In this document: positions 2 to 16,974 of the stretch, one piece after another
Numbering within the stretch: the stretch's first letter is position 1
Layout of the letters: every line of letters begins with the position of its first letter
IMG/VR virus record: IMGVR_UViG_3300043465_000643
Span: 1-34,594 of that record
Reading direction: 5' to 3' (one strand)
Length of the DNA: 34,594 bases
From: a virus
The notes under the pieces: model-generated
The model's input: only the letters and a program-made list of their open reading frames with translations
Databases searched by the model: none
Told to the model about the DNA's origin: nothing
Position numbers and translations under genes: made by a program

Positions 2-1207
2 AAACCTTTAATTTTTAAATTAAATGGGGGGTCAAATAATAAATTATATGAATATCTTAAATTACGAGATTTATCGTTAACATACGATAACAAATTAGAT
101 GAAAATTTCTCAACAAGTTTTAATACTTTTTATTATGACAATCCAAACGTTATTACTCATAACAATGTCGAGTATAATGTAAATTATAATGAGATTTCTG
201 ATTTAAAAATCCAATCTTTAATTAAAGTCATTTGTTTATCTAACGGTCCAAAAGATAATTGTTCTAATTGGAGATTATTTCAGCCATACGATAGATTTGA
301 AAACGGAATAAATTACGAATTAGTGTTAAGTGCGGATTTTAATTTTGAGAGAGATAAAAATGCGGATGTTGTTATAATTGGTAGACCTCTAATTCATTGT
401 TTAAATTATATTAGACAATTAAAAGAATATAATGTAAAAATTATTATTGATTATGATGATGTATTACCTCTTGTGTGGAATTATGAACCATCTTATTTAG
501 AATCATATATTGAAGTTTTAACGTTAATATTAACGGAATGTGATATGGTTACAACAACTAATGATAAGTTAAAACATTATTATGAACAACATTCACAATT
601 GCCGGTTGAGATAGTGCCGAATATTGTAAAACCTGAATTAATATCTAAAAAAACTAAAAAAAATTCGGATAAAATAACTTTAGGTTGGTATGGTAGTAAC
701 GGACATTTAAGTGGTTTAAAAATTATAAATAAAGACGTTTTACGAATATTAGACGAATTTGATAACGTTTACTTTAATTTATACACTAAAAGTCAGGACA
801 TTGTAAATTTATTTATTCACGAAAAAGTCAATGTAATACCTTACAACGATAATTTTTATGAATTTTTGGAAAGTATAAATGACATAGATATAAACTTATC
901 TCCAATAGAGGAAACCTATGTTAATTTTTGCAAATCAGATATAAGAGTTCAATTAATTGGTCACAAAGGTATTCCAAGTATTGTTAGCGATTTTTCTGAA
1001 TATAAAAGATTTGCCGAATTAAATGGTGGTGCGTTACTTTGTAGAGACAATGAATGGTACGATAAAATTAAGTTGTTAATATTAGATAACGAAAAATATA
1101 ATGATTTAGTTGTAAGATTAAACGAAACAATTGTGGAACATTTTGATTATAAAAAATACTCAGAAATCAATGATAATAAAATAAAAAAATTAATAGGAAA
1201 AAAATGA
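2..1207 (+). CDS. Glycosyltransferase, GT-B fold (GT4-like), 5'-truncated by the window
   Basis: The frame is open from base 2 to the stop at 1207 with no stop codon, so the gene begins before the window; 401 residues are visible. The GTG at 323 is internal to this frame and not the real start. A DYDD motif at about residues 150-153, a TTTND segment followed by VEIVPN, and LGWYGSNGH at about 227 are typical of GT-B (GT1/GT4-like) glycosyltransferases that use nucleotide-sugar donors. The C-terminal half carries the expected donor-side region (about 300-360) but without a clear canonical E-x7-E. It would transfer a sugar in the cytoplasm of the infected cell; substrate unknown. It overlaps the next gene by 4 bases (ATGA), so the two are probably translationally coupled. 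The fold call is fairly sure; donor and acceptor cannot be read from the sequence. Confidence 0.8.
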   Translation, partial: KPLIFKLNGGSNNKLYEYLKLRDLSLTYDNKLDENFSTSFNTFYYDNPNVITHNNVEYNVNYNEISDLKIQSLIKVICLSNGPKDNCSNWRLFQPYDRFENGINYELVLSADFNFERDKNADVVIIGRPLIHCLNYIRQLKEYNVKIIIDYDDVLPLVWNYEPSYLESYIEVLTLILTECDMVTTTNDKLKHYYEQHSQLPVEIVPNIVKPELISKKTKKNSDKITLGWYGSNGHLSGLKIINKDVLRILDEFDNVYFNLYTKSQDIVNLFIHEKVNVIPYNDNFYEFLESINDIDINLSPIEETYVNFCKSDIRVQLIGHKGIPSIVSDFSEYKRFAELNGGALLCRDNEWYDKIKLLILDNEKYNDLVVRLNETIVEHFDYKKYSEINDNKIKKLIGKK

Positions 1208-3585
1208 CAAGAATTGATATTATAAATACATTAATTACCAAACATAATTATAAAACTTATTTGGAAATTGGGGTTAGAAACCCTAATGATTGTCTTAATC
1301 ATATTAATTGTGATTTAAAACACGGGGTAGACCCTGGTGTTGAGGGGGATTATCCGGTCACTTTTAATATGACATCTGATGAGTTCTTTCATATTAACAC
1401 CTCAACCTATGATATAATTTTCATAGATGGGTTACATATTGACGAACAAGTGGAAAGAGATATTATTAATAGTTTAAATGTTTTAAGTAAAAATGGTACA
1501 ATTGTTTTACACGATTGTAATCCTCCTCAAATTCATCACGCCAGAGAAGATTACGGTGACCATTCAACTAGTGCCGGTGGAAATTGGAATGGAACGACTT
1601 GGAAAGCAATTGTTAAAGTTAGAAGTGAAATTAATGACATATACACAAGTGTGGTTGATACAGATTGGGGTGTGGGGATTATTCAAAAATCAGAAACACC
1701 AAATATGATTGTTAACGATAACCCATATTTTTCATATAATAAATTTTCTGAAAATAGAAAACATTACCTCAATTTAATATCCCCTGAGGAATTTTTTTAT
1801 CAACACATTAACATTGTTGACTCTAAAAAAAAAAGATTAACGTGGTTGGCGAAATATGATGATTACGCATCAATGGGTATATTATCCCAAAAGATTCTTC
1901 AAAATTTAAAAACCACAGATTTGTCCTGTAAAGAAATTATTGGTCAAACAGAAACAAATAATGTCTTAATTCATAACTTAATTAAAAAACCAATAAATCA
2001 CGAGTTAGGTATTATGTTTGCTTATCCGGATTCAATTGGTCAATTAAAGGGGTTTAAAACTAAAGTTATTTATACCGGTGTGGATACTACAGGAGGTATA
2101 CCTAATTTTGCAACAAATATTAACCAAACTGATTATATCTTAACCCCATCAAATCTATCAAAAGATAGGATGATTAAAATGGGTGTTACCAAACCAATTT
2201 TTGTATTTCCACACGGAATAGAAAAGAATGAATTTGTATATAAACCAAGAATTATGGGTGATAAATTTAAATTCCTTTACATTGGTGAATGTAGTGATAG
2301 AAAAGGTATTTTTCATTTATTAAAAACGTTTACATCTCTTTATAAAAATAACCCAAATGTTGAGTTACATTTAAAATCTAACTCAGCAATGTTGTTCTAT
2401 GGTGGTAATGAAGTTCAAAAATATGTTGATGAAAATTCAAATATATTTTGGGATAAATCAGATACGGGTCACGAAAGAATGATAGAACTATATAATGAAT
2501 GTCACGCTTATGTTTACCCATCAAGAGCCGACACTTTTGGTATGACAATATTAGAAGCTATGGGATGTGGGTTACCTGTAATTTCAACATCAGAACCAGG
2601 TGCTTCAGAATTAGTTAAAGGAATGTATTATGAAACACCAACTAAAGAAGTTGCGGTTGTTGGACATCCCTGGATGTTAGGTAATTGGGGGGAACCTGAT
2701 ATGAGAGTATTGAAGAATCAAATGTTAACTTTAGAACAAAACTATAACACTTTGGCAAAACCTGAAAAATTACGAGAAATTTCAGAGTTTGTTAATGAAA
2801 ATTATTGTTGGGAAAAAGTAACTGAAGATTTTGAAAATAATATTTTACCTAAGTTAACTAAAGAAGTTAAAATTTTAACATTATTAACATCATATAAAAG
2901 ACCTAATCACATTAAGAATGTTATTAATTCATTAAAAGAAAATCGTGGCGATGGTTACACTAATGATGTGTATATTGTAGATAATACTGATGATGATTCA
3001 AAAGATGAGGTCACCAAAATTATTAATGAAAATATTGACGATAAATTTACCTTATATTCCTCAAGTTTTAATTTAGGTCAAAGAGGTGCTTTACTTCAAA
3101 TGTTAGATGATATTAATATTGATGATTATGACTTTATTCAATTTACCGACCAAGATAACTTATTAATTGAACCTTTGATTACATATTGTGATATTTTAAC
3201 AGAATATCCTGAAATATTTTTTGTTACAGGTTATATGAGTAAAGAACACGGTGAAATTGGGTGGAGACACACTAGATTTGGTAAATTGTGTGAAAAACGT
3301 TCATTAAGGGCTGGACATATGTTTATGAGGGTTAGTGATTTAAAAAGTCTTTATCCAATTCATTTAGATAGTCAATATGGTAAAGATTATAATTCAATTT
3401 GGTATGCAGGATTAGATTGGGAACTTTTGTCTTGGAACTTAAATTCGCCTTGGAGACATAGAGGCGATAATTTTGTTTTATGTGTTCCTGGTGGTGTTTT
3501 ACATAAAGGTATTGATAGCACATTTGATGTGTGGGATGTTGAAGCAAATGAATATACATTAGAAGAGTTACAAAAGATGAGGTAA
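1204..3585 (+). CDS. Three-domain methyltransferase / GT4 / GT2 fusion protein
   Basis: This 793-residue protein has three enzymatic parts. Residues 1-200 resemble a class I SAM-dependent methyltransferase (Methyltransf_24-like): LEIGVRN at 20-26 is the SAM-binding loop, followed by FIDGLH at 73-78 and LHDCNPP. Residues about 265-550 form a GT4-type GT-B domain, with FLYIGECSDRKG near 357 and PSRADTFGMTILEAMGCGLP near 440, the E-x7-E-like donor site. Residues about 555-793 are a GT2-like GT-A domain starting ILTLLTSYKRP, with a D-x-D (D649-Q-D651) for metal and nucleotide binding. It would add two sugars and a methyl group to one glycan, but the linkage is unknown. It begins inside the stop of the preceding gene (ATGA overlap). 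No stop or frame change breaks it, so the fusion is real in this sequence. Confidence 0.85.
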   Translation: MTRIDIINTLITKHNYKTYLEIGVRNPNDCLNHINCDLKHGVDPGVEGDYPVTFNMTSDEFFHINTSTYDIIFIDGLHIDEQVERDIINSLNVLSKNGTIVLHDCNPPQIHHAREDYGDHSTSAGGNWNGTTWKAIVKVRSEINDIYTSVVDTDWGVGIIQKSETPNMIVNDNPYFSYNKFSENRKHYLNLISPEEFFYQHINIVDSKKKRLTWLAKYDDYASMGILSQKILQNLKTTDLSCKEIIGQTETNNVLIHNLIKKPINHELGIMFAYPDSIGQLKGFKTKVIYTGVDTTGGIPNFATNINQTDYILTPSNLSKDRMIKMGVTKPIFVFPHGIEKNEFVYKPRIMGDKFKFLYIGECSDRKGIFHLLKTFTSLYKNNPNVELHLKSNSAMLFYGGNEVQKYVDENSNIFWDKSDTGHERMIELYNECHAYVYPSRADTFGMTILEAMGCGLPVISTSEPGASELVKGMYYETPTKEVAVVGHPWMLGNWGEPDMRVLKNQMLTLEQNYNTLAKPEKLREISEFVNENYCWEKVTEDFENNILPKLTKEVKILTLLTSYKRPNHIKNVINSLKENRGDGYTNDVYIVDNTDDDSKDEVTKIINENIDDKFTLYSSSFNLGQRGALLQMLDDINIDDYDFIQFTDQDNLLIEPLITYCDILTEYPEIFFVTGYMSKEHGEIGWRHTRFGKLCEKRSLRAGHMFMRVSDLKSLYPIHLDSQYGKDYNSIWYAGLDWELLSWNLNSPWRHRGDNFVLCVPGGVLHKGIDSTFDVWDVEANEYTLEELQKMR

Positions 3586-3599: not shown

Positions 3600-5777
3600 A
3601 TGCAGATAATTGAAATCACTAGTTTAACCGGACATTCCCCATATGATATCACAATTTGTGATATCACTAAATCTTATTGTTATATTGTTGCCTCTGGTGT
3701 TACGTCAGCACCAATTATGGTAGATATTCCTACAGAATTATTAGGGACACAAGAATTAATTGTTGTGGTAACAGATTCTACGGGATGTGAAACTTTTTCA
3801 AATTATAATTGTTTTACACCTACACCTACACCAACATTCACTCCAACACCGACTATTACGCCAACAAACATTTCCTGTAATTGTATAACTTTTACAAATA
3901 CAGGAACAACACTTGGTGCGTTTAGTTATATTGATTGTGATAATCAAGAAATTAATTTTAAAATTAATTCCGGAACAACTCTTTATGTTTGTGGGAAATC
4001 ACCATCAATTATTGTTGGTGATGTAACATATTCTATGGGATTACCGTGTGTTAATAATACTTGCATTCCTCCAACGCCAACACCGACATTAACACCGACA
4101 CCAACACCCGTTATTGTGGACTGTTCAACTTACGTTGTTTTTAACACAGGAACTACCGTTTCAAAATATGATATTAACACAAACACTCTAACTCCATTAA
4201 CATTCCCAAACCCATTATATATTGGTGACGTTGCAAATAGTTATGGTAGGTTTTGGTCAACATCGTGGGATATACCATATGCTTTAACGGAATATTCAAT
4301 AATACCATCACCTTTTAGTGCGGTTTATAACAAAACTCTTAACTATACAATAAATTTATCGGGGTTAGTTGCCAAAGATAATACCACTTTAATATCTACA
4401 AGAGCAATAAGTGGTTCATCCAATATGATTGTCGAGTTTGATGTGTCAGGTGACGATGGTAGTTATTTAACGGTAATTGATAAATTTGGGTTACCTGGTA
4501 TTGATAGAAGTGTAGGTGGTGATTTGGCTTACTTACCAACCACAGATAAATTATTTGTTACAAGTAATGGTATTGGTGGGGATTGGATAACTCAGTTTGA
4601 TTATACAACAGGTAATGTGGATTATGATGTTAATATTTCATTACTAGTTGGTAGTAATTATGGGTTATCATCAAAAGACGGATATGTTTATATCTACGCC
4701 TATAATGGTGATGTTTATAGAGTGGATAGTATGTCTGTTCCAACATTTACATTAGTACAAACAACAACCGCTGGTGTTAATGCCGCATCTTCCGACCCTA
4801 GTTGTGCTATAGTACCAACACCAACCCCAACACCGACACCGACACACACAATTAGTTGTGTGACACCTGTCTTAAGTAGTGTAACACAATTATCAGGTTC
4901 AACATACGGTGTAATTTATTCAACAAGTTATGGTTGTACATCTGTTGATATTGAATATTCAAGAGATACTATAACTTGGACTGCAGACACAGGAACTTGT
5001 TCAACATCAAGAATTGTCGACACCGGAGATGGTACAGGTACTTGGTATTTCAGAGTAATTCAATTATGTAGTGGAAATTATTTAACGGGGAATACGTTAA
5101 CCTATATTCCAACATCGCCAAATCCAACCCCAACACCAACTCCAACACCAGCATATCCTTATAATAACTTAGACTATACCTATATTATTCCGGAACCACA
5201 AGACGTAACATCATTAAGTGGTTTAAGTGCTTATATGACAAGTAATGGTAGTACTTTCTTGGGATGGGGTAATAGTGGATTACCATCTACGGTAGGGTAT
5301 TCAAATAATTTAGACATATACATACATTACTCAGGATTTACTGGAGGTAGTGGTAATTTTATTTCTAATGTGGGTAATCTTAAGAGCCCTACTTTAAATG
5401 ACCCAAATACCGGTTTGGATGAATATGGGTGTAACTCTGCCGGTTTTAATACTATCGAAGTTGACCCAACAAATGTTAATCCAAATATACAGTATTTTTA
5501 TACAATATGGGTACCAATTAACGAACCTTTAACCTCCTCAATAAGTAATATATTAGTAAATATTGGTTATGGTGTTCCTTGTACCTCATCAATACTTAAC
5601 AATGGTATACCGGATAGTACTTTGTTTTCTCAAGACGTTTTTGTAACATCAGGGGCTCCAATACCTTCAGGGTATTATAAAGTATTATGGTTAGACCCAT
5701 CTTGCTTGTTACCTACAGTATTACCACCACCCGAATTAGGGTTCCCATTATATTTTAATGGTTCAGGTTTTATATAA
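3600..5777 (+). CDS. Modular fibre/adhesin with Thr-Pro-rich linkers
   Basis: This 725-residue protein is built of globular beta-type modules separated by Thr-Pro linkers. Residues 1-72 are a small Cys-containing module (Y-D-I-T-I-C-D, ending D-S-T-G-C). Linkers of repeated T-P lie at about 73-90, 158-171, 405-416 and 508-517. Residues 92-157 are a Cys-rich module. Residues 172-404 look like a beta-propeller, with recurrent blade-like segments such as MIVEFDVSG, LAYLPTTDKLFVT and ITQFDYTTG. Residues 418-505 resemble a fibronectin III/Ig-like domain that recurs in the second fibre protein. Residues 518-725 form a distinct C-terminal domain of unknown fold. No signal peptide or membrane segment is visible. 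The likely role is a virion tail fibre or receptor-binding protein; assignment rests on architecture, not a recognised family. It sits among glycosyltransferase genes, which suggests it may be glycosylated. Confidence 0.65.
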   Translation: MQIIEITSLTGHSPYDITICDITKSYCYIVASGVTSAPIMVDIPTELLGTQELIVVVTDSTGCETFSNYNCFTPTPTPTFTPTPTITPTNISCNCITFTNTGTTLGAFSYIDCDNQEINFKINSGTTLYVCGKSPSIIVGDVTYSMGLPCVNNTCIPPTPTPTLTPTPTPVIVDCSTYVVFNTGTTVSKYDINTNTLTPLTFPNPLYIGDVANSYGRFWSTSWDIPYALTEYSIIPSPFSAVYNKTLNYTINLSGLVAKDNTTLISTRAISGSSNMIVEFDVSGDDGSYLTVIDKFGLPGIDRSVGGDLAYLPTTDKLFVTSNGIGGDWITQFDYTTGNVDYDVNISLLVGSNYGLSSKDGYVYIYAYNGDVYRVDSMSVPTFTLVQTTTAGVNAASSDPSCAIVPTPTPTPTPTHTISCVTPVLSSVTQLSGSTYGVIYSTSYGCTSVDIEYSRDTITWTADTGTCSTSRIVDTGDGTGTWYFRVIQLCSGNYLTGNTLTYIPTSPNPTPTPTPTPAYPYNNLDYTYIIPEPQDVTSLSGLSAYMTSNGSTFLGWGNSGLPSTVGYSNNLDIYIHYSGFTGGSGNFISNVGNLKSPTLNDPNTGLDEYGCNSAGFNTIEVDPTNVNPNIQYFYTIWVPINEPLTSSISNILVNIGYGVPCTSSILNNGIPDSTLFSQDVFVTSGAPIPSGYYKVLWLDPSCLLPTVLPPPELGFPLYFNGSGFI

Positions 5778-5834
5778 ATTTACCATTTATTATTATTTCT
5801 ATATTATTATCTTTTGTTTAAAAATAAGAGATAT

Positions 5835-7082
5835 ATGAAAATATTTGTGCAGATAGCCGCCTATCGTGACCCCCAACTTATCCCAACTATTAAAAATATG
5901 TTGGAGAATGCTAAGAAACCTAAAAATTTAGTAATCGGAATTTGTCGTCAATATCATCCGGAAGATGGTTTTGATGATTTATCTGAATATGCGAAAGATA
6001 AACGATTTAGAGTTGTTGATGTATTATACACCGAATCTAAAGGTGTGTGTTGGGCAAGAAACCAAGTACAACAATTATATAAAGGAGAAGAGTATACCCT
6101 TCAAATAGATTCTCATATGAGATTTGAAAAGGATTGGGATGATACCTTAATCAAAATGGTTAAACAACTTCAAAAGAAAGGATTTAAGAAACCTTTATTA
6201 ACAGGGTATGTTTCTTCATTCGACCCTGATAATGACCCGGCAGGTAGAGTTAAAGAGCCTTGGAGAATGGCGTTTGATAGATTCATTCCTGAAGGAGCCG
6301 TATTCTTTTTACCTGAAACTATTCCGGGATGGCAAGACCTTAAAGAACCGGTTACCTCAAGATTCTACTCAGCACATATGGCATTCACTGTAGGTGAATT
6401 TAGTGTTGAGGTTCAACACGACCCTGAATTCTATTTTCACGGAGAAGAAATATCAATTGCCGTTAGAGCATTTACTCACGGGTACGATTTATTCCACCCA
6501 CACAAAACAGTTATTTGGCACGAATATACTCGTAAGGGTAGAACCAAACAATGGGACGACGATAAAGAATGGGGTAAGAAAAATGAATTATCTCATAAGA
6601 AAAATCGTCAATTATTTGGTATGGATGGTGAAGAAGTTACTATGGATTTTAGTAAATACGGATTCGGTACTGAAAGAACACTTAAAGACTATGAAATATA
6701 TTCAGGTCTTAAATTCTCAAACAGAGCTGTACAACAATATGTATTAGATAAAAAATATCCACCAAATCCTCAAGTATATGAGTCTGATGAAGAATGGTTA
6801 GCAAGTTTCGCTAGTATCTTTAAACATTGTATTGATATTGGATTTACTCAAGTACCTGAGAAAGATTATGAATATTGGGTTGTTGCATTTCACGATGAAA
6901 AAGATGAGACTATCTATAGAAAAGATGCGGATATCAATGAGATTAATAATATGATGAGAGACCCTGATGGGTATTGTAAAGTATGGAGAGAATTCCAAAC
7001 CACTCATAAACCAAAGTATTGGGTTGTTTGGCCGTATAGTAAGTCAAAAGGTTGGTGCGATAGAATAACAGGTAATCTATAA
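5835..7082 (+). CDS. Skp1-type GlcNAc-transferase-like glycosyltransferase (GT60-like)
   Basis: The start chosen is ATG 5835, giving 415 residues; the frame extends 7 codons further upstream to a TTG, but homology begins at MKIFVQIAAYRDP. That opening, the DSHMRF motif (IDSHMRF at 91-97), FHGEE at 201-205 and HPHKTVIWHEY at 221-231 are the hallmarks of the GlcNAc family (PF11397), named for the Dictyostelium enzyme that puts GlcNAc on hydroxyproline of Skp1. D92-S-H94 is the likely metal-binding DxH. Residues about 300-415 are an extra C-terminal region of unknown function containing several Trp and Tyr. It is a GT-A fold enzyme expected to use UDP-GlcNAc or a related donor; the acceptor here is unknown. 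The gene follows the Thr-Pro-rich fibre gene, which makes that fibre a candidate acceptor. The stop overlaps the next start by one base. Confidence 0.8.
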   Translation: MKIFVQIAAYRDPQLIPTIKNMLENAKKPKNLVIGICRQYHPEDGFDDLSEYAKDKRFRVVDVLYTESKGVCWARNQVQQLYKGEEYTLQIDSHMRFEKDWDDTLIKMVKQLQKKGFKKPLLTGYVSSFDPDNDPAGRVKEPWRMAFDRFIPEGAVFFLPETIPGWQDLKEPVTSRFYSAHMAFTVGEFSVEVQHDPEFYFHGEEISIAVRAFTHGYDLFHPHKTVIWHEYTRKGRTKQWDDDKEWGKKNELSHKKNRQLFGMDGEEVTMDFSKYGFGTERTLKDYEIYSGLKFSNRAVQQYVLDKKYPPNPQVYESDEEWLASFASIFKHCIDIGFTQVPEKDYEYWVVAFHDEKDETIYRKDADINEINNMMRDPDGYCKVWREFQTTHKPKYWVVWPYSKSKGWCDRITGNL

Positions 7083-7519
7083 TGATTTTAATATCACATA
7101 GAGGTAATATTAATGGAAAGTTTGAATCGTATGAGAATGAGCCAAACTATATTGATTTAGCTTTATCTAAAGGTTATGATGTTGAGATTGATGTTTGGTA
7201 TGTTGACAATTTACTTTATTTAGGTCACGATAAACCACAATATGGGATAAATTTTAGATGGATTCAAGATAGATTTGATAAACTATGGATTCATTGTAAA
7301 AATGTTGAGGCGGTCGTCTATTTTAAAGAATGTGGATATGATGTTAATTACTTTTGGCATCAAGAAGACACTTTAACATTAACAAGTAAAAACCACCTTT
7401 GGGTATACCCCGGTAAACAACCAATAAATAAAAGTATTGCGGTAATGCCCGAAATACATAATGAAGATACAACCAATTGTTTTGGGGTATGTTCAGATTA
7501 TATTGAGAACTACAAATGA
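7082..7519 (+). CDS. Short glycerophosphodiester phosphodiesterase-like protein
   Basis: A 145-residue protein that opens with the GDPD/PI-PLC-like signature: HRG at residues 6-8, EID at 35-37 and HD at 49-50, which in GDPD enzymes supply the catalytic His pair and metal ligands. Full GDPD domains are about 230-250 residues, so this is a shortened barrel and may lack part of the C-terminal metal site. Similar short HRG proteins are found beside HAD phosphatases and nucleotidyltransferases in surface polysaccharide loci, and that is the case here. It may act on a glycerophospho-substituent of a glycan or be a non-catalytic relative. It overlaps both neighbours (one base upstream, ATGA downstream), so it is in a tight operon. 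Confidence 0.65.
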   Translation: MILISHRGNINGKFESYENEPNYIDLALSKGYDVEIDVWYVDNLLYLGHDKPQYGINFRWIQDRFDKLWIHCKNVEAVVYFKECGYDVNYFWHQEDTLTLTSKNHLWVYPGKQPINKSIAVMPEIHNEDTTNCFGVCSDYIENYK

Positions 7520-8883
7520 TAAAAACTATAATATTTGATTTAGACGGGGTATTGGTTGAAGCTAAAAAACTTCATTACGATTGTTTAAACAACGCTTTAT
7601 TTGAGGAAGACCCTAAATTCATTATTAAATGGAACGAACATTTAAGTTTATATGATGGATTAAAAACAAATCAAAAATTAGATTTGTTACATTCTAATAA
7701 AGGGTTACCTAAAGACTCTTTTATAAGGGTGTGGGAAAAGAAACAAAAATTAACTTTAGAGTCTTTGCAAAATTTACTCCCATCACAAGAATTAATTTAT
7801 TGTATGAAAAAATTATCTGAGGATGGATATAAGATTGTTTGTTGTAGTAACAGTATTAGAAAAACAATTTTAACTGTTTTAAGTAAATTAGACATTATTC
7901 AATATTTTGATTTAATACTTTCAAACGAAGACGTTAAGAATAGTAAACCTCACCCGGAAATATATTGGAAAGGAATATCAATGATGGAATGTTTACCAGA
8001 AGAAACTTTAATTATTGAAGATTCACCATACGGATTATTGGCTGCAAGTCGAAGTAATTCAAATATATTAAGAGTTAAAGAACCTAGTGATGTTACATAT
8101 TCATTAATAATTAATAAAATAAATAAATTAAAAAATACAAACCTTATGAGTACACCAAAATGGTCTGATAATAAACTAAATGTTTTAATACCTATGGCAG
8201 GTGCGGGTAGTCGTTTTGAAAAAGCGGGGTATACATTTCCAAAACCATTAATCGATGTTAAAGGTAAACCTATGATACAAGTTGTTGTGGATAATTTAAA
8301 TATGGACGCTAATTTTATTTTTATTGTTCAAAAATCTCATAGAGAAAAATATAATTTAGATACATTGTTGAATCTAATCACACCTAATTGTAAAATAATG
8401 GAAGTTGAGGGTATTACTGAAGGAGCCGCTTGCACAACATTATTAGCCAAAGAATTTATTGATAATGATAGTCCGTTAGTTATGGCTAATTCTGACCAAT
8501 TTGTGGAATGGGATTCAAATGAGTTTATGTATAAAATGAATGAGACGGATTGTGATGGTGGTATAGTAACATTTAAGTCAACTCACCCTAAATGGTCTTT
8601 CGCTAAAATTGACGATTCCGGTTTTGTAACAGAAGTTGCGGAAAAAAATCCAATATCCGATATCGCCACAGTCGGTGTTTATTATTGGAAAAAAGGTTCT
8701 GACTATGTAAAATTTGCCGAACAAATGATTCAAAAAAATATAAGAGTTAATAATGAATTTTATGTTTGTCCGGTATTCAATGAAGCAATATTAAGTGATA
8801 AAAAAATTAAAACATTTGACATCAAACAAATGTGGGGGTTAGGTACTCCTGAAGATTTAAATTATTATTTAGAAAATAAGTAA
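7516..8883 (+). CDS. HAD phosphatase fused to sugar nucleotidyltransferase
   Basis: A 455-residue two-domain enzyme. Residues 1-205 are a HAD-superfamily phosphatase of the beta-phosphoglucomutase-like type: FDLDGVL at 7-13 with nucleophile D8 and acid D10, CCSNS near 114, SKPHPE near 143 supplying Lys, and IIEDS near 169 as the acidic motif. Residues about 220-455 are an NTP_transferase (sugar-phosphate nucleotidyltransferase) domain: IPMAGAGSRF at about 225 is the nucleotide-binding loop, PKPLI about 15 residues on, and ANSDQF near 322 carries the catalytic-type Asp. The pair would supply an activated sugar or polyol, with the HAD part removing a phosphate. The exact sugar cannot be inferred. 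Its start lies within the preceding stop (ATGA), and the next gene begins 3 bases after its stop. Confidence 0.85.
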   Translation: MIKTIIFDLDGVLVEAKKLHYDCLNNALFEEDPKFIIKWNEHLSLYDGLKTNQKLDLLHSNKGLPKDSFIRVWEKKQKLTLESLQNLLPSQELIYCMKKLSEDGYKIVCCSNSIRKTILTVLSKLDIIQYFDLILSNEDVKNSKPHPEIYWKGISMMECLPEETLIIEDSPYGLLAASRSNSNILRVKEPSDVTYSLIINKINKLKNTNLMSTPKWSDNKLNVLIPMAGAGSRFEKAGYTFPKPLIDVKGKPMIQVVVDNLNMDANFIFIVQKSHREKYNLDTLLNLITPNCKIMEVEGITEGAACTTLLAKEFIDNDSPLVMANSDQFVEWDSNEFMYKMNETDCDGGIVTFKSTHPKWSFAKIDDSGFVTEVAEKNPISDIATVGVYYWKKGSDYVKFAEQMIQKNIRVNNEFYVCPVFNEAILSDKKIKTFDIKQMWGLGTPEDLNYYLENK

Positions 8884-8886
8884 TAT

Positions 8887-9549
8887 ATGATAGTAATTGC
8901 GACAAATAATGGTATAGATTTTTTACCAAATTTATTATCTGATTTAGAAAAATTTAACATAACGGAAGAAATATCAATAATTGATACTCAATCAAGTGAT
9001 TCTGAATTTATTAATTACTTAGAGAATTTAAAATCCTTTAATAAATTTAAATTAAAAATTAATATATATAAAACACCATATAAAGGATTTGACACCGGAG
9101 CATATATTTACGCAATTCAAAATTTAAAATCAGATAGATTTATATTTTTACAAGATTCAATTAGGATTAAAAGTGTGGATTTTTTTAATTTAATAGAGGA
9201 AAAATTAAAAATATCAAATGTAGTAACAATATTAACATTTGATGGTAATTGGTGGGATAATCAAATTCAAAAAGATTTTTCATTAAAACATTTTGGGACA
9301 ACAATATTTGAAACGGGTATTTTTGGACCAATGTTTACTATATCATATTTAGACTCACAAAAAATAGAAAAAAACTTATTAATTTATCCTGAAAATAAAG
9401 AACAACAAAAAGCTATGGAAAGATGTTGGGATATTATTTTTAAAAAAACTAGTTTAACTGTTGATAACCTTGAGGGTAATCACAATGATTTAAAAATAAA
9501 CAACGATGGTTATCAATATTTTACAAAAATAAAACCTTACAGAATTTAA
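8887..9549 (+). CDS. Putative GT-A glycosyltransferase
   Basis: A 220-residue protein starting MIVIATNNG, with the pattern of a small GT-A/GT2-like domain: a first beta strand and Asn-rich loop, IIDTQSSD (31-38) at the usual position after strand 2, YKGFDTGAYIYAI near 65-77, and RFIFLQDS (84-91) in the position of the DxD strand. The canonical D-x-D is replaced by Q-D-S, so metal use is unclear. There is a Trp-rich loop (GNWWDN) near 117. The protein is shorter than many GT2 enzymes but no frameshift is evident. It starts 3 bases after the HAD/nucleotidyltransferase gene and leads, with a short A-rich gap, to a GT10-like gene. Acceptor and donor are unknown. Confidence 0.6.
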   Translation: MIVIATNNGIDFLPNLLSDLEKFNITEEISIIDTQSSDSEFINYLENLKSFNKFKLKINIYKTPYKGFDTGAYIYAIQNLKSDRFIFLQDSIRIKSVDFFNLIEEKLKISNVVTILTFDGNWWDNQIQKDFSLKHFGTTIFETGIFGPMFTISYLDSQKIEKNLLIYPENKEQQKAMERCWDIIFKKTSLTVDNLEGNHNDLKINNDGYQYFTKIKPYRI

Positions 9550-9560
9550 ATTAAAAAAAA

Positions 9561-10457
9561 ATGATAGAAATTACGTTAAACGATAATAGTTTTGGGCATC
9601 AAACATATTTAACACCTTATTTAAATTCTAAAAAAATAATATGGAAAAGAGATGGTGTTAGAAGAAAATTAAATGTATATACCGATAATTTAATTAAAAA
9701 AACACATATTGATATACCAAAAGATGATAATTATAATATTTGCGTTTTATTAGAACCATATACCAATCCTCCGTGGACTGATGTGTATGACTATATTAGA
9801 ACGGATTTTGAAAAATTTGATTTAATAATTACACACAATTTACAATTATTAGGTGATTTAATTGAATCTCGTCCTGATAAATTTTATTATTCCACAAAAT
9901 GTTTAACAACTTCTTGGTTATCAGAAGAACATATTGGATTACATAAAAAAACAAAAAATATTTCTATGGCGTTTTCACATAAAAATTTTTCAGAAGGACA
10001 TAGAATTAGACATTTAATTTATGAAAAATATAAAAATCAAAATATTATAGATTTTTATGGTAGTGGTGTTGATAATTTTTCAGGAGAATTTAGAAACGCT
10101 ATGATAGATTACAAATACACAATTTGTTGTGAGAACTCATTACAAAAAGGGTTTAATTCTGAAAAACTTAATGATTGTTTTTTAACAGGGTCAATACCGA
10201 TATATTGGGGGTCAAGATTAATTGATAAAAATTATAATGAAGAGTCAGTGTTTTATTTTTCACCCAATATTGATAAAGTAGATTTTAATTTTGATGAATC
10301 ATTTTCAAACCTTGATATGATTATTCAATCAATATTAAAAAATGACAATTATTATTCTCACGATAATTCAATTAAACAGAATTACGAATACACTCTTGAC
10401 AAATTAAATAGTGAAGATAATTTGTATGATATATTAAAAGAAAGAAATTTTATATGA
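9561..10457 (+). CDS. GT10-like (alpha-1,3-fucosyltransferase family) glycosyltransferase
   Basis: A 298-residue protein whose residues 185-220 show the GT10 C-terminal donor motif: YTICCENS, then FNSEKLNDCFLTG and SIPIYWG, matching the family pattern F-x-ENS, T/SEK, L/F-x-G, xPIYWG. E191, N192, E201 and K202 correspond to conserved residues used for GDP-fucose binding in known fucosyltransferases. The N-terminal half is divergent, with LLEPYTNPPWTDVY near 63-77 and DLIITHN near 87. Length is in the range of bacterial fucosyltransferases. The donor may be GDP-fucose or another GDP-6-deoxysugar; no GDP-fucose synthesis genes are in this window. The last 4 bases overlap the next gene. Confidence 0.75.
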   Translation: MIEITLNDNSFGHQTYLTPYLNSKKIIWKRDGVRRKLNVYTDNLIKKTHIDIPKDDNYNICVLLEPYTNPPWTDVYDYIRTDFEKFDLIITHNLQLLGDLIESRPDKFYYSTKCLTTSWLSEEHIGLHKKTKNISMAFSHKNFSEGHRIRHLIYEKYKNQNIIDFYGSGVDNFSGEFRNAMIDYKYTICCENSLQKGFNSEKLNDCFLTGSIPIYWGSRLIDKNYNEESVFYFSPNIDKVDFNFDESFSNLDMIIQSILKNDNYYSHDNSIKQNYEYTLDKLNSEDNLYDILKERNFI

Positions 10458-11224
10458 TTAAATGGTTTGGAGAATATCTTTGTGATGCCGGATTTTTAAT
10501 AAATTTAAAGGAAAGAACTGATAGATTATTAGTCGCGGAAAAAGAACTTAATGATTGTGGGATTGAGGGTGTTCAAATATTTGAAGCGGTGTCTATATTA
10601 GACCCAAATTTTAATAAATATGGTTGCACTCAAAGTCATATTGAGATTGCTAAAAAACAGATAGAGAATAATTGGGAATATGTTCTTTATTTAGAAGATG
10701 ATATAAAAACAGAATACTATTATTCTGAAAAAATACCTTTAGAAACTGTAGATAGAAAAAAAGTCTCTAAATCAATAATTGAAGATTTAGAAAAATATAA
10801 ACCCGACGTTTTATGGTTAGGCGTTAGACCTGAAGAAAACACAGAGTATGTTTCCAATAATTTAGTAAAAACTAATAAAACTTTAATGTCTCACGCATAT
10901 ATTGGGTCATTAAAATATGCTAATTTTTTAGTCGAAAATTTACAGTATACCAATAATCAACATTTTAGTTCTAGACTTCCAATAGACTATTTCATTTCCC
11001 AACTAACAGAAAAAAATTGTTGGCAAATTAATTCATTTAAAAATGGTGAAAACATTCTAAACAATGATTTAAAAGTTTATATGTCGTCCCCTTTAATTTT
11101 TAATCAAGGAGCGTCATTTTCTAATATAATTGATAGAGATGTTGATTATTCAACTTGGGTTAGAGGTTGTATTGATACTTATGTGAATATAGATGAATTA
11201 AAAATAAACCCACATTTAAAATAA
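10454..11224 (+). CDS. GT25-like (LPS-type) glycosyltransferase
   Basis: A 256-residue protein with GT25 features: INLKERTDR at 16-24, GCTQSHIEI at 57-65 and YLEDDI at 79-84, where the acidic triplet acts as the DxD-like site. GT25 contains LPS galactosyltransferases and collagen galactosyltransferase relatives, and usually uses UDP-galactose or UDP-glucose. The C-terminal part has SHAYIGS near 151 and QGASFSNI near 219, also typical of this family. It overlaps the GT10-like gene by 4 bases. The family call is firm; donor and acceptor are inferred only by analogy. Confidence 0.8.
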   Translation: MIKWFGEYLCDAGFLINLKERTDRLLVAEKELNDCGIEGVQIFEAVSILDPNFNKYGCTQSHIEIAKKQIENNWEYVLYLEDDIKTEYYYSEKIPLETVDRKKVSKSIIEDLEKYKPDVLWLGVRPEENTEYVSNNLVKTNKTLMSHAYIGSLKYANFLVENLQYTNNQHFSSRLPIDYFISQLTEKNCWQINSFKNGENILNNDLKVYMSSPLIFNQGASFSNIIDRDVDYSTWVRGCIDTYVNIDELKINPHLK

Positions 11225-11253
11225 ATAAAAATAAAAAAATAAATTAAAATATT

Positions 11254-11937
11254 ATGAATAACGCAATAAAATATTGGGATGAAACAATTGTTTTAAGACA
11301 CATTGGGACAGAATTAAAATGGTTATTTGATTATCTTGATTCTAATGATATTAAGAATGTTTCATTCATTGATATTGGGGGGAATGTTGGTAAATTTTAT
11401 GATGAAGTGTCTAAAAAATATAAAGTAGATAAATGTATAATCGTTGAGGCGTCTAAAAGACTTAGTGAGTATATGGTTAAAAAATTTGAAAATAATCCTG
11501 AGGTGACTGTACATAATTTTGGATTGTCAGATGTTGAGGGGGAGTTTTTTTTCGACGATTCTGGAATTGATTATTGGTTAAATAAAGATTTAGATGATAG
11601 TATCAATTTAGGTTTATCTAAAATTTCAAAATCTAATGGTGAGACTAAATTTTATAAAATGGATTATTTTTTAGAAAACATAAATACTATTTCACCAAAT
11701 GAAATTACATTTATTAAAATAGATACTGAAAATAGAGATTTACCAATTATAAAAGATATGATGGGATATTTGATAAAAAATAACATAAAACCATTTATTT
11801 TATTTGAAAATAATTTTCATAACGATTTAACTTTAGATGAAGCTAAAAAAATAATTAATGATTTTTCAGAAAAATGTGGGTATTATCCAGTTGATATATC
11901 AATAAGTGGAGATTCATATCTAAAACCAATAATATAA
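11254..11937 (+). CDS. FkbM-like SAM-dependent methyltransferase
   Basis: A 227-residue class I methyltransferase with the SAM-binding motif FIDIGGNVGKF near 38-48 and the acidic motif IIVEAS (62-67). VHNFGLSD near 87 and FIKIDTEN near 153-160 are typical of the FkbM family, which O-methylates sugars and polyketides. Within a glycosyltransferase cluster its likely role is O-methylation of a glycan residue. A 29-base A/T-rich gap precedes it and no Shine-Dalgarno box is visible. The next gene starts 4 bases after its stop. Confidence 0.78.
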   Translation: MNNAIKYWDETIVLRHIGTELKWLFDYLDSNDIKNVSFIDIGGNVGKFYDEVSKKYKVDKCIIVEASKRLSEYMVKKFENNPEVTVHNFGLSDVEGEFFFDDSGIDYWLNKDLDDSINLGLSKISKSNGETKFYKMDYFLENINTISPNEITFIKIDTENRDLPIIKDMMGYLIKNNIKPFILFENNFHNDLTLDEAKKIINDFSEKCGYYPVDISISGDSYLKPII

Positions 11938-11941
11938 AAAA

Positions 11942-12619
11942 ATGAAAAAAATATATGAAATGGTTCATAATTTCAAAATTGATAAGAAATTTTGGACATA
12001 CGATGGTTTAACCGGTGAGGATTATGATTTTAAACGGTCTAAGCCCGCATATTACATAAAGAAAGCGATAGAAATTGCTAAATATTTAGAAATGAAAACG
12101 GTTGTCGAAATTGGTTCAACAAGACTATCTGTTACACAAGGATGTGTTGATTATTACAATAGTGAAAACAATCCTTACTTATCACCACCTTGTTGTTGTG
12201 ACGGTCACGGAGGTTTTTTTTGGACTGAAGCTGGTTTTGATGTCTACACTGTTGACATTGACGTGAATTGTATTAATGGTGTTAAATACTCTTATTCTAA
12301 TTTGGGTAAAGAAGTACCAAACAATTTAAAAATTATAATACCAAAAGATGGTATTGAATTTTTAAAAGAATTCTCAGGGAAAATTGATGTTTTATTTTTA
12401 GATGGTTGGGATAAAGGAACCGATATGTACGCTGAAAAACATTTAGAGGCATATCTATCCGCAAAGGATAAATTATCTGACACAAATTTAATTTTGATTG
12501 ACGACACTGATTATATAACAAATGATGGTGGTAAAGACGCTTTACTATCCCCCGTTCTATTAGAGGAAGGATACATACCATTATTCAATGGTAGACAAAC
12601 TTTGTTTTTAAAAAAATAA
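11942..12619 (+). CDS. Putative SAM-dependent methyltransferase (Methyltransf_24-like)
   Basis: A 225-residue protein with TVVEIGST at 53-60 as a SAM-motif I variant, VYTVDIDV at 101-108 as the acidic strand, DVLFLDGW at 149-156 and LILIDDTD at 183-190 as later Rossmann strands. An unusual Cys cluster (CCC at 84-86, in SPPCCCDGHGG) lies in the loop after motif I; with the neighbouring Asp and His residues it might bind a metal, but this is speculation. The order VEIGS ... FLDGW ... IDD matches the Methyltransf_24 type seen in the N-terminus of the 1204-3585 protein. A sugar or small-molecule substrate is likely from context. It could be a non-catalytic Rossmann protein. Confidence 0.65.
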   Translation: MKKIYEMVHNFKIDKKFWTYDGLTGEDYDFKRSKPAYYIKKAIEIAKYLEMKTVVEIGSTRLSVTQGCVDYYNSENNPYLSPPCCCDGHGGFFWTEAGFDVYTVDIDVNCINGVKYSYSNLGKEVPNNLKIIIPKDGIEFLKEFSGKIDVLFLDGWDKGTDMYAEKHLEAYLSAKDKLSDTNLILIDDTDYITNDGGKDALLSPVLLEEGYIPLFNGRQTLFLKK

Positions 12620-12638
12620 ATAAAAAATACAACATAAT

Positions 12639-13397
12639 ATGGAAAAAATAATTATTAGTTTAACAACTATACCTTCAAGACTTAATTACCACGACCCAAA
12701 TGGTGGGTTACGACCGGTTCTAAATAGATTATTGACCCTGTCATATTCTGATTATGAAGTTCATCTTAACATACCTTACATTGTTAAAAAAACAAATGAA
12801 GAATATTCTATACCTTCTTGGTTAACAGAAATTACTGACTCAAAATTAAAAATATTTAGAACTGATGATTATGGTTCTATGACTAAAATATTACCAACAA
12901 TTTTACGTACTGATGAAAATGATAATATTATCATCATAACCGTTGATGATGATTTGTCTTATGAAGACGGATTTATTGAATATCATTTGGAAAAGAGAAA
13001 ACAATATCCAAATGCTGCGATTGGGTTTGCGGGGATTTCAGCAATAAACGGAATTTGTCATTTTTGTACAACCGTTAAGGAAGATGTTAGGGTTAAAATA
13101 ATTGAAGGTTATAAAACGGTCTCTTATCGACGAAGTTTTTTTAAACCGGATTTCTTTAGTGAATTTGTTGGAGAATCTTGGAGTGACGATATTATTTTAT
13201 CGGCATATATGGGAAAACATAATATTGAAAAATGGGTGGTTAGTTATGATAAGGACGAAGATTACACCCCAAGAGTAGAATCATTTCCTATTATCGGACA
13301 TTTACCAAATGATAGAGGTGGATGTTGGTGGTACCGTTCAGAAAGTGCATCAGACAACGCAGATAAGTTCTATAAATTACAATACTTAGAAAGATAA
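12639..13397 (+). CDS. GT2-like (GT-A) glycosyltransferase
   Basis: A 252-residue protein opening IIISLTTIPSR, with a D-x-D strand IIIITVDDDLSY at about 97-108 (VDDD at 102-105). SLTTIPSR followed by a VDDD strand is characteristic of a family of capsule-type glycosyltransferase-like proteins. The C-terminal part has GESWSDDIILSAY near 178, resembling the catalytic-base region (E/D-D) of GT-A enzymes, and a Trp/Tyr/Arg-rich tail (GCWWYRS). It lies 19 bases after the methyltransferase gene and ends 1 base before the next gene. Substrates unknown. Confidence 0.7.
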   Translation: MEKIIISLTTIPSRLNYHDPNGGLRPVLNRLLTLSYSDYEVHLNIPYIVKKTNEEYSIPSWLTEITDSKLKIFRTDDYGSMTKILPTILRTDENDNIIIITVDDDLSYEDGFIEYHLEKRKQYPNAAIGFAGISAINGICHFCTTVKEDVRVKIIEGYKTVSYRRSFFKPDFFSEFVGESWSDDIILSAYMGKHNIEKWVVSYDKDEDYTPRVESFPIIGHLPNDRGGCWWYRSESASDNADKFYKLQYLER

Positions 13398-13398
13398 T

Positions 13399-15075
13399 AT
13401 GAGTTCAATTACATTAGTTACCGGTTTATGGGATATAGGTAGAGGTGACCTTCAAGAAGGATGGTCACGTTCATTCCAACATTATTTAGATAAATTTGCA
13501 CAACTATTACAAGTTGATGTTAATATGATAATTTTTGGAGATGAAGAATTAGAACAATTTGTCTCAAGTAATAGACGTAGTGAAAATACTCAATTTGTTC
13601 GTAGAGATTTATCTTGGTTTAGAAATAATGAGTTTTACAATAAAATACAAAATATACGAACTAACCCTGATTGGTATAATCAAGTTGGTTGGTTAACAGA
13701 ATCAACTCAAGCTAAATTAGAGATGTACAATCCTTTAGTTATGTCAAAAGTATTTTTGTTACACGACGCTAAAATTTTAGATAAATTTGATTCTGAATAT
13801 ATGTTTTGGATTGATGCTGGTTTAACAAACACAATACATCCGGGATATTTTACTCACGACAAAGTTTTAGATAAATTACCTAAGTTAGTTAAGAGTTTTC
13901 ACTTTGTTTGTTTCCCATACGAAACTAGTTTGGAAATACACGGATTTAAATATGATAAATTATGTGATTTAGCCGGAGCTGAGGTTAATAGGGTTGCAAG
14001 AGCGGGTTTCTTTGGGGGTAAGAAAGATTCAATATCCGAAATTAATAATATCTATTATGGATTAATGGATAGTACCTTATCAAGTGGATTGATGGGTACT
14101 GAAGAATCTTTATTCACAATTATGACATACAAATACCCATCATTAATTACTTATTCTGAAATAGATGGTAATGGGTTAATGGGTAAGTTTTTTGAAGATT
14201 TAAAAAATACAACCGTTGAGGTTAAATCGGAAGCATCAAAAGATGCGACTATCAATAATTTAGACACATCAAAAGTGGGTCTTTATGTAATAGCGTTTAA
14301 TTCACCAAAACAATTTGAAGTTTTAATAGATTCAATGTTAGAATATGATAAAGATTTTATAGATAAACCTAAAAAATATTTATTAGACAATTCAACTGAT
14401 TTATCTACAACACCAAGATATCTTGAACTATGTGAACAATATGGTTTTGAACATATTAAAAAAGATAACATTGGGATTGTTGGGGGTAGAGTATTTGTTG
14501 CAGAACATTTTAATGAAACTGATTTAGATTGTTATTGGTGGTTTGAGGATGATATGGCATTTTACCCTAAAAAAGATGAGGTTTGTCGAAATGGGTTTAA
14601 TAGATATGTTGGTAATTTATATCAAAAATCTTTAGACATCCTCCAAAAAGAAAATTTTGATTTTCTTAAGTTAAATTTTAGTGAGTTTTTTGGTGACAAT
14701 AGTGTACAATGGAGTTGGTATAACGTACCTCAAGATTTTAGACAAAAACATTGGCCAAATAACCCTAAGTTACCAGTACAAGGATTAGACCCTAATTCAC
14801 CTAAAACACAATTTAAAGAAATAAAAACACATAAAGGGTTACCATACGCAACCGGAGAAATTTATCTATGTAATTGGCCTATAGTATTAACAAGAGAGGG
14901 TAATTATAAATGTTATTTAGAAACAAAATGGGCTCACCCTTTTGAACAAACATTAATGAGTTATTGTTATCAGGAGACTGTTAAAGGAAATATTACATCG
15001 GGATTATTATTATTAACACCGACTGAACATAATCGATTTGAACATTATGACGGTTCATTGAGAAAAGAAAGTTAA
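13399..15075 (+). CDS. HtrL/YibB-like domain fused to a GT2-like glycosyltransferase
   Basis: A 558-residue two-domain protein. Residues 1-260 match the HtrL/YibB type (PF09612): ITLVTGLWDIGRGD at the start, VNMIIFGDEE near 41, and YMFWIDAGLTN near 134, where D-A-G stands in the DxD-like position. These proteins are regarded as glycosyltransferases of LPS or capsule loci. Residues about 290-558 begin VGLYVIAFNSPKQF and contain YWWFEDDMAFY near 378-388, a GT-A-like acidic strand, so a second transferase domain is likely. A poorly conserved linker (SEASKDATINN) joins them near 275. It is the last enzyme of the island; the Thr-Pro-rich second fibre gene follows after 39 bases. Confidence 0.72.
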   Translation: MSSITLVTGLWDIGRGDLQEGWSRSFQHYLDKFAQLLQVDVNMIIFGDEELEQFVSSNRRSENTQFVRRDLSWFRNNEFYNKIQNIRTNPDWYNQVGWLTESTQAKLEMYNPLVMSKVFLLHDAKILDKFDSEYMFWIDAGLTNTIHPGYFTHDKVLDKLPKLVKSFHFVCFPYETSLEIHGFKYDKLCDLAGAEVNRVARAGFFGGKKDSISEINNIYYGLMDSTLSSGLMGTEESLFTIMTYKYPSLITYSEIDGNGLMGKFFEDLKNTTVEVKSEASKDATINNLDTSKVGLYVIAFNSPKQFEVLIDSMLEYDKDFIDKPKKYLLDNSTDLSTTPRYLELCEQYGFEHIKKDNIGIVGGRVFVAEHFNETDLDCYWWFEDDMAFYPKKDEVCRNGFNRYVGNLYQKSLDILQKENFDFLKLNFSEFFGDNSVQWSWYNVPQDFRQKHWPNNPKLPVQGLDPNSPKTQFKEIKTHKGLPYATGEIYLCNWPIVLTREGNYKCYLETKWAHPFEQTLMSYCYQETVKGNITSGLLLLTPTEHNRFEHYDGSLRKES

Positions 15076-15114: not shown

Positions 15115-16974
15115 ATGGATTTTTTTATAAAGAAAAACGCAACATTACCGGTATTAAAACTTCAAGTAGTTAAAGACGGAAGAAGTGAGTATAATAATTT
15201 TATGGAATTATTAGAGACTTCTTCTATTTTCTTTTCTATGGTTAATATTGAGACCGGTATTCCAAAAATAATGTCTAAGACAGCGGGTATTGTTTCAAAA
15301 ACTTTTGATGACCCAAATACCCCAACAGAATATTATATTTACTATCAATTTACTTCAACAGATACAAATGTGTCTGCAAGATATGAAGGACAATTTTTAA
15401 TTAAAAACGATGATGGTAATTTAATTCTACCAATTAATGAACGATTGTTTATTAATATTCAAGAATCGTTTATTGCTGATGATTTAGAGTATGATAATTG
15501 TTATACATCCGTCTATCCTTGTTGTGTAGTGCCTTATACACCTATATATCCTAGTGTTACACCTACAACGACACCTACAACGACACCTACAATGACACTT
15601 ACAATGACACCTACAATGACACTTACAATGACACCTACAGAAACGCCAACAAATACACCTACAGAAACGCCAACAAATACACCTACGGAAACCCCAACAA
15701 ATACTCCTACGGAAACCCCAACAAATACTCCTACTCCAACAATAACTCCAACAATAACACCTACGGAAACTCTTACGCCAACACCAACATTCTCATACTG
15801 TGGAATACAATTAGATAGTGTTACATATGATAGTGGAAATAATTGGATTTATACTTTTACAAACTTATTTGTTAGTTGTTCTCAATTATTTTTAGAATAT
15901 TCTCAAGACTTTGGTGATAATTGGGAAGCTGTTGATTGTGGTTGTGCATCACCTCAAACATATAATATAGGTATTGATTTACACGGAGCAACTTTATTTA
16001 GAATAACTCAAGTTTGTGACGATTCAACAACAACATATTCAAATGTTCTATCTTATGATATAACTCCAACTCCAACCCCAACACAAACTTTAACCCCAAC
16101 ACCAACTCTAACTGAAACACTTACACCTACACCAACTTTAACATTAACACCTACGGAAACACCTACTGAAACCCCAACAAATACTCCGACAGAAACGCCA
16201 ACCCCAACCCCAACTGAAACAGTTACAGAAACGCCAACACCAACTCCAACTGAGACGGAAACACCTACTCCAACACCAACTCTAACTGAAACTCCAACAA
16301 ATACTCCGACAGAAACGACAACACCAACTCCAACTGAGACGGAAACACCTACGCCAACACCAACTCTAACTGAGACGGAAACACCTACGCCAACACCAAC
16401 CCCAACTGAAACTCCAACTGAAACTCCAACAAACACACCAACTGAAACCCCAACTGAAACTCCAACAAACACACCAACATTAACCCCAACTGAAACTCCA
16501 ACAAACACACCAACATTAACCCCAACACCTACACTTACACCGAGTCCAACTCCAGTGACTGGTGTAACGTTCTCACAAGCATTCACGGGTGCAACTGCAC
16601 CATCATCCGCAATAGAAACTGCTTGGAATACATTTAGAAGTCAATTAACAGGTTCATATACTCAATTTGTATGGTCAAGTACAAATGGAAATTCAATAAC
16701 TGTTAGTGACCCAACCTTAGTACAGTCCTTAGCAAATGGGTTAAGAACCGCCACAGTAACCGCAGAAACTATTAATAGTGTGTCTTGGAGAGTTGGTATA
16801 GGATGTGGCACACCTAAAATTGGTGGGGTTGCCGTTGAGTTCTCAAACATTGTCAGTTGTGATGTATCTAGTACATATGCTCTTAGACCTATGATTGATA
16901 ATGCAAACTGGGGTGGTACCAATCAATATACGGTAGGTGCTCCATCACAAACAATAACACTCACATTTAGTTAA
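15115..16974 (+). CDS. Thr-Pro-rich (mucin-like) fibre/adhesin protein
   Basis: A 619-residue protein. Residues 1-148 form an N-terminal globular domain (begins [28 protein letters not shown] near 41) that recalls baseplate-attached N-terminal domains such as BppU_N, but the match is only suggestive. Residues 149-225 and 317-480 are almost pure Thr-Pro repeats with interspersed Glu and Asn (TPTETPTN units). Residues 226-316 are an Ig/FN3-like domain ([32 protein letters not shown]) matching the one in the 3600-5777 protein. Residues 481-619 are a C-terminal domain rich in Ser and Thr, probably receptor binding. No signal peptide. The stalks carry a high density of Thr hydroxyls, suited to O-glycosylation. 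It is inferred to be a virion fibre; the next gene begins 2 bases after the stop. Confidence 0.7.
15559..15726 (+). repeat. Tandem DNA repeat, 12-base then 24-base units
   Basis: Six 12-base units of the form ACACCTACAAYG (15559-15630; variants differ at one or two bases) are followed by four 24-base units ACACCTACAGAAACGCCAAC+AAAT (15631-15726). Units 1 and 2 of the 24-base set are identical; units 3 and 4 differ by up to three bases. Unit lengths are multiples of 3, so copy-number change would keep the reading frame and alter stalk length of the fibre. Confidence 0.9.
16063..16554 (+). repeat. Degenerate Thr-Pro coding repeat array
   Basis: About 490 bases encode [11 protein letters not shown] units with higher-order blocks, for instance CCAACTGAGACGGAAACACC recurring near 16247 and 16329, with a near copy near 16368. 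The repeats are more degenerate than the upstream array, consistent with older duplications. They also create a long open frame on the opposite strand that is an artefact. Confidence 0.85.

Follow-up and report, generated by a model that had tools for sequence, protein, structure and literature searches.

What would a polypeptide glycosyltransferase modify in a phage? The initiation of mucin-type glycosylation is usually told as a eukaryotic story. In the stretch of viral DNA analysed here (the window; IMG/VR record IMGVR_UViG_3300043465_000643, 34,594 nucleotides), an enzyme of family PF11397 lies directly downstream of a gene encoding threonine-proline (Thr-Pro) tracts and is surrounded by other sugar genes (Table 1). 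Since such pairs of enzyme and Thr-Pro gene are found again in other phages and in bacteria, this large, uncultured phage and its relatives probably carry mucin-like sugars on their surface fibres. The PF11397/Thr-Pro pairing is unusual and, as far as found in the open-access literature, undescribed; no paper there was found to link PF11397 to phages or to Thr-Pro tracts, or to name an acceptor.

Table 1. Features of the window that bear on the proposed glycosylation system.
Position	Strand	Feature	Details
323..3585	+	Upstream sugar genes	GT-like ORF; Methyltransf_24 + GT4 + GT2-like multidomain protein
3600..5777	+	Thr-Pro-tract protein 1, proposed acceptor	725 aa; tracts start at residues 71, 157, 405 and 504
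5835..7082	+	PF11397 polypeptide glycosyltransferase, GT60-like	415-aa ORF from ATG 5835 to a stop codon closing at 7082; residues 1-295 GT-A domain, ~325-415 beta-sandwich
6108..6116	+	D92-S93-H94 (DXH) codons, presumed metal and sugar-nucleotide site	Sequence, conservation, GT27 analogy
6519-6521	+	H229 codon, presumed third ligand	Invariant in 61 homologues, GT27 analogy
6732..7079	+	C-terminal region, immunoglobulin/FN3-like beta-sandwich	Not covered by the PF11397 model
7082..13397	+	Variable sugar cassette	GDPD-like, HAD plus nucleotidyltransferase, GT10-like, GT25-like
7082..13397	+	Variable sugar cassette, further members	FkbM methyltransferase, second methyltransferase, two short GT-like ORFs
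13399..15075	+	HtrL_YibB-type protein (PF09612) with second domain	Conserved enzyme partner
15115..16974	+	Thr-Pro-tract protein 2, second proposed acceptor	619 aa; 65 TP dipeptides

Family and conserved motifs of the enzyme

The initial annotation had placed the gene in PF11397 and named a profile search as the check; that search, once run, gave a clear match, with E=9.6e-71 and a score of 239.5 bits where the cut-off is 21. The alignment consists of two stretches, reaches profile position 350 of 352 and ends at residue 294 of the enzyme, with residues 300-415 lying beyond the model. The phage glycosyltransferase family phrog_24687 matched with 566.7 bits, aligning residues 2-412 to profile positions 3-406 of 409, and a single scan returned 409 viral relatives; with so many relatives and a phage family of its own, the ORF is far from a chance reading frame. 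An in-frame TTG at 5814, upstream of the ATG, would extend the protein by seven residues. By itself, placement in PF11397 is an ordinary family assignment.

Two motifs, AYRDP at the start of the protein and DSHMRF at residues 92-97, had been singled out as family hallmarks, and both proved strongly conserved across 61 diverse homologues: D92, H94, R96, F97 and H229 are invariant, and Y10, R11, D12, P13 and S93 are at least 90% conserved. The metal site of GT27 enzymes is formed by a DXH motif plus a distal histidine; by analogy, the DXH motif of the phage enzyme is presumed to be its metal and sugar-nucleotide site, with H229 as the presumed third ligand.

Predicted fold

An AlphaFold2 model of the enzyme, built from the 61-sequence alignment with the XacN1 and RAS14 rows left out, had a mean pLDDT of 93.6. 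The leading 44 Foldseek matches in the PDB were polypeptide GalNAc-transferases, the best with E about 1e-10. VIA-align likewise ranked 29 ppGalNAc-transferase entries first, with Z scores of 19.3-22.6 and, for most of them, 258-282 aligned residues and an rmsd of 3.3-3.7; other GT-A enzymes followed at 17.8 and below. As modelled, the fold is nearest to that of the mucin-type polypeptide GalNAc-transferases, and because several of the top PDB entries hold mucin peptides, a peptide acceptor groove in the predicted structure is plausible. A profile search with the 61 sequences returned no GT27 chain at E up to 10 among PDB chains; a T7 RNA polymerase match at E about 0.005 in a single-sequence PDB search was gone with the profile and was attributed to chance. 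The combination of a GT27-like fold with no GT27 sequence match suggests an enzyme that works like GT27 while being classed in PF11397.

The C-terminal part, about residues 300-415, had been described as lying outside the usual domain. This is true of the Pfam model, but the region is present in phrog_24687, XacN1, RAS14 and many bacterial homologues; being conserved in phages and many bacteria, it is no peculiar extra of this phage. Modelled alone, the domain was predicted as a beta-sandwich (pLDDT 93.8) whose likeness to FN3 or Ig domains appears only generic: the best Foldseek match had E 0.06 and the best VIA match, to FN3 domains, Z 7.8, and the two fold searches listed no firm structural relative and no beta-trefoil. 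A Thr-Pro gene neighbours 8 of 33 bacterial enzymes with this domain versus 3 of 45 enzymes lacking it. The domain was also considered as a Thr-Pro recognition module, for which independent pairs on the tree were unsupportive (median p=1), leaving a weak lead only.

Pairing with Thr-Pro genes in phages

Thr-Pro genes were called at a threshold of 5 in 30 aa, with thresholds of 4-7 all reported; a stricter threshold of 8 in 40 aa misses the window's own Thr-Pro gene. This gene ends 57 bases before the ATG of the enzyme, as had been noted at the outset. A Thr-Pro ORF stands within 500 bp of the enzyme, typically at 26-120 bp, in 71 of 80 close viral loci versus 20% for other genes there, a count that overstates the evidence since these loci represent one lineage. 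The corresponding figure for distant viral loci was 31 of 80 versus 8%, and the distant phage set alone, taken as 70% clusters, gave 2/15 versus 8%, which is not significant. Mapped on a tree of 99 rows, the adjacency label requires 16 changes, and the arrangement is therefore recurrent rather than the product of a single inheritance.

The association was also visible at the level of whole records. Thr-Pro tracts were found in 22 of the 23 GT-bearing phage records above 130 kb, the exception being G125 (175 kb), versus none of three controls above 130 kb and one of nine above 57 kb. No TPTPTP tract occurs in G125, in six PF11397 records of 59-122 kb, or in L264. Contigs chosen for a Thr-Pro tract contained PF11397 in 12 of 59 cases, versus 1 of 48 chosen by a random 14-mer; the remaining 47, many of them fragments, had no visible PF11397. 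A tandem PF11397 pair on a contig without a Thr-Pro tract was noted for L264/L325, L264 being the sole control contig with PF11397.

DNA polymerase, used as a route to isolate relatives, led no closer than distant matches in Salinibacter and cyanophages. In related large phages (L493, L494, L497), Thr-Pro proteins or their neighbours contain repeats of the SprB, Fib_succ_major or BspA type; such repeats would suit adhesins or fibres and hint at Bacteroidota hosts.

Pairing in bacteria

The bacterial scan, with one genome per species, yielded 175 relatives in genomes and metagenome-assembled genomes (MAGs), and 79 loci were read; some of these contigs derive from MAGs, and L440, L470 and L442 may be viral. 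Thr-Pro genes adjoin the enzyme in contigs of Bacteroidota, Gemmatimonadota, Acidobacteria, Verrucomicrobia, Sphingomonas and Desulfobacterales. Nine of the 19 Thr-Pro genes in bacterial loci lie within 500 bp of the enzyme, where random placement expects 1.8, and for enzymes with the C-terminal domain, counted as 70% clusters, the frequency was 7/27 versus 4.3% (p=0.0002). Several bacterial Thr-Pro proteins have twin-arginine-like N-termini, as read from sequence, a type IX secretion sorting domain forms the end of one, and in Gemmatimonadota the Thr-Pro protein carries a fused PqqD-like domain.

A PqqD-like protein adjoins PF11397 genes in L436, L439 and L483 (Gemmatimonadota) and in L452 (Methylococcaceae), and an HPr-kinase-like P-loop protein lies beside them in L436, L439 and L452. 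In L436, L439 and L483 the PqqD-like domain and a twin-arginine-like stretch are parts of one fused protein, with Thr-Pro tracts in L436 and L483.

Candidate acceptors and tract composition

In Pfam and PHROG profile searches, neither Thr-Pro protein of the window matched a structural-protein family, and the one beside the enzyme had no family match at all; we infer the fibre identity of this protein, whose relatives occur in 62 of 80 close viral loci. The proposal that this adjoining protein is an acceptor candidate is supported, as the pairing recurs and the nearest solved folds are those of peptide Thr/Ser glycosyltransferases. The minus-strand ORF at 16053-16586 is no gene: its VGVGVSVGV repeats mirror the Thr-Pro tracts encoded on the opposite strand.

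Within proline-dense tracts of the close phage loci, the residue before proline is threonine in 76% of cases and serine in 3% (T:S 3688:148, or 25:1, against a background of 1.1), while the two residues are about equally common outside the tracts. Replication slippage was rejected as the source of these tracts, with neighbouring hexamers hardly more alike than independent codon draws; because the codons are mixed approximately as in independent draws, the tracts look kept by selection at the protein level.

A YibB-type partner and an exchangeable sugar cassette

Among the sugar genes of the window, only the YibB-type ORF (PF09612; E=7.5e-18, 65.5 bits versus a cut-off of 24.1) is a constant companion of the enzyme. 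It was found in 73 of 80 close and 65 of 80 distant viral loci, in XacN1 and RAS14, and in 15 of 69 bacterial loci, at a spacing from the enzyme of 0 to 7 kb, and it is present in 18/19 GT-bearing records versus 0/10 controls. In contigs of Acidobacteria and Myxococcales, PF11397 and YibB, in some cases together with a methyltransferase, are fused in one chain, and a Thr-Pro protein adjoins one of the PF11397-YibB fusions. No other sugar gene of the cassette exceeds 15 of 80 viral loci in either set; the enzyme and YibB form a fixed frame around an exchangeable sugar cassette.

Individual ORFs of the window also drew attention. The short ORF at 7082-7519 has an HRGN start like that of glycerophosphodiester phosphodiesterases, belongs to phrog_34507 (unknown function) and possibly provides a sugar-phosphate step, and the ORF at 7516-8883, which joins a HAD hydrolase and a sugar-phosphate nucleotidyltransferase in a single chain, probably produces an activated sugar. 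The tail sheath protein (27363-30938) is unusually long at 1191 aa, its best sheath family match covering only residues 901-1189.

XacN1 and the virion

XacN1 is the best-matching isolate, with 48% identity to the enzyme, and its gene set comprises the enzyme (ORF334), YibB (ORF330) and ORF325, a protein of 3313 aa with two Thr-Pro tracts near its C-terminus. ORF325, encoded immediately after the baseplate wedge genes, matches a virion structural protein PHROG (E=5.6e-73). At least two virion glycoproteins have been reported for XacN1, and its authors suggest that the phage glycosyltransferases make them (PMC5852040); as the main text leaves these glycoproteins unnamed, they can be linked to ORF325 only tentatively. 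The enzyme and the Thr-Pro gene are not adjacent in XacN1 and its closest relatives but lie ~9-10 kb apart. XacN1 ORF333 (L083:13409-15706), a carbamoyltransferase directly after the PF11397 gene, suggests a carbamoylated sugar.

Proposed function and alternatives

We consider it likely that the enzyme is a mucin-type initiator acting on the Thr-Pro tracts of the phage's own surface or fibre-like proteins. As a soluble, cytoplasmic enzyme it would use a UDP-HexNAc donor, probably UDP-GlcNAc, and place the first sugar on tract threonines of both window Thr-Pro proteins; the YibB-type protein and the variable glycosyltransferases and methyltransferases may then extend and cap the glycan, presumably in this order. 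Since phages assemble their parts in the cytoplasm, modification would require no prior export. The glycan would be displayed on the virion, where it may serve in receptor binding or in shielding. For phage and bacterial members of this PF11397 subfamily, no biochemistry was found. A broader reading, to which we give even chances, would see a Thr-Pro "mucin", a PF11397 initiator with beta-sandwich and a YibB extender as a mobile, cytoplasmic, prokaryotic module of mucin-type O-glycosylation, serving twin-arginine-like secreted proteins in bacteria of several phyla and, through exchangeable cassettes, variable fibre glycans in large phages.

The enzyme and its cassette could instead modify host lipopolysaccharide or capsule, for example to block superinfection, with the Thr-Pro genes being neighbours through a shared late, fast-changing region. 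The cassette does resemble polysaccharide loci (GT4, GT10, GT25, FkbM, HAD-nucleotidyltransferase), and htrL-type genes are mentioned for lipooligosaccharide outer core loci (PMC4172580, PMC10327509). Yet the nearest folds are polypeptide transferases, and the Thr-Pro pairing recurs in several bacterial phyla, away from phage late regions, which makes this explanation unlikely. The same folds, together with bacterial relatives that adjoin secreted proteins, argue against glycosylation of phage DNA, which we regard as highly improbable even though other phage glycosyltransferases act in this way (DNA glycosylation in phages is noted in PMC5852040).

Alternatively, the enzyme could act on a peptide at hydroxyproline, the residue used in Skp1, or away from the tracts, which would then be plain rigid linkers. 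Hydroxyproline is the acceptor of the founding PF11397 member (PMC6939170), the analogy drawn in the initial annotation, and Thr-Pro tracts also occur in phages in which no PF11397 was seen. However, prolyl-hydroxylase-like genes (PF13640) were present in only 2 of 19 related phage records, which makes a Skp1-like acceptor unlikely, a host hydroxylase being possible, and linkers would tolerate Ser, Ala or Glu, contrary to the strong bias for threonine before proline. We judge this alternative distinctly unlikely; threonine rather than hydroxyproline is the likely acceptor residue, and the Trypanosoma cruzi mucin (Thr) branch of GT60 fits better than the Skp1 analogy.

If mucin-type initiation on Thr-Pro tracts is correct, a phage and bacterial counterpart acting on repeat-rich acceptors of its own would offer a soluble, easily assayed system, bear on the origin of the GT60/GT27 fold, and account for the sugar-gene arrays beside fibre-like genes in many large phages. 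The YibB family, of "unknown function", would become a glycosyltransferase candidate. Hypothetically, a variable fibre glycan coat could also affect host recognition and environmental persistence.

Comparison with known systems

The phage enzyme shares its Pfam family, PF11397, with CAZy GT60. The founding branch of GT60 is Skp1 Gnt1 of Dictyostelium and Toxoplasma, which adds GlcNAc to hydroxyproline (PMC6939170), and the T. cruzi UDP-GlcNAc:polypeptide alpha-GlcNAc-transferase of GT60 is implicated in starting mucin-type glycans on threonine (PMC8724618, PMC6939170). Like cytosolic Skp1 Gnt1, the phage enzyme is soluble and has no export signal; unlike the Skp1 Gnt1 system, it comes from phages whose relatives have few prolyl-hydroxylase-like genes. 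From the eukaryotic GT60 members in general it differs in the additional C-terminal beta-sandwich, the phage and bacterial home, the Thr-Pro tract partner and the YibB partner.

The closest solved fold is that of the GT27 ppGalNAc-transferases of animals and Toxoplasma (Z up to 22.6 for the predicted model), with which the enzyme shares the DXH motif plus distal histidine and a layout in which the catalytic domain precedes a beta-type C-terminal domain; by sequence, it matches no PDB chain significantly. The C-terminal domain of GT27 is a ricin-type lectin domain (PMC8724618), whereas that of the phage enzyme looks, in its best VIA match (Z 7.8), like an Ig/FN3-type sandwich, although a fold search leaves room for other families.

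Among phages, capsid glycosylation of the F1 mycobacteriophage Maravista has been tied to its glycosyltransferase genes (PMC11256854), and the present system resembles XacN1 (PMC5852040) and Maravista (PMC11256854) in having phage-encoded glycosyltransferases, with virion glycoproteins reported or proposed. Finally, the window's partner ORF is a member of HtrL_YibB (PF09612), which appears here as the constant companion of a protein glycosyltransferase and, in some bacteria, is fused to it.
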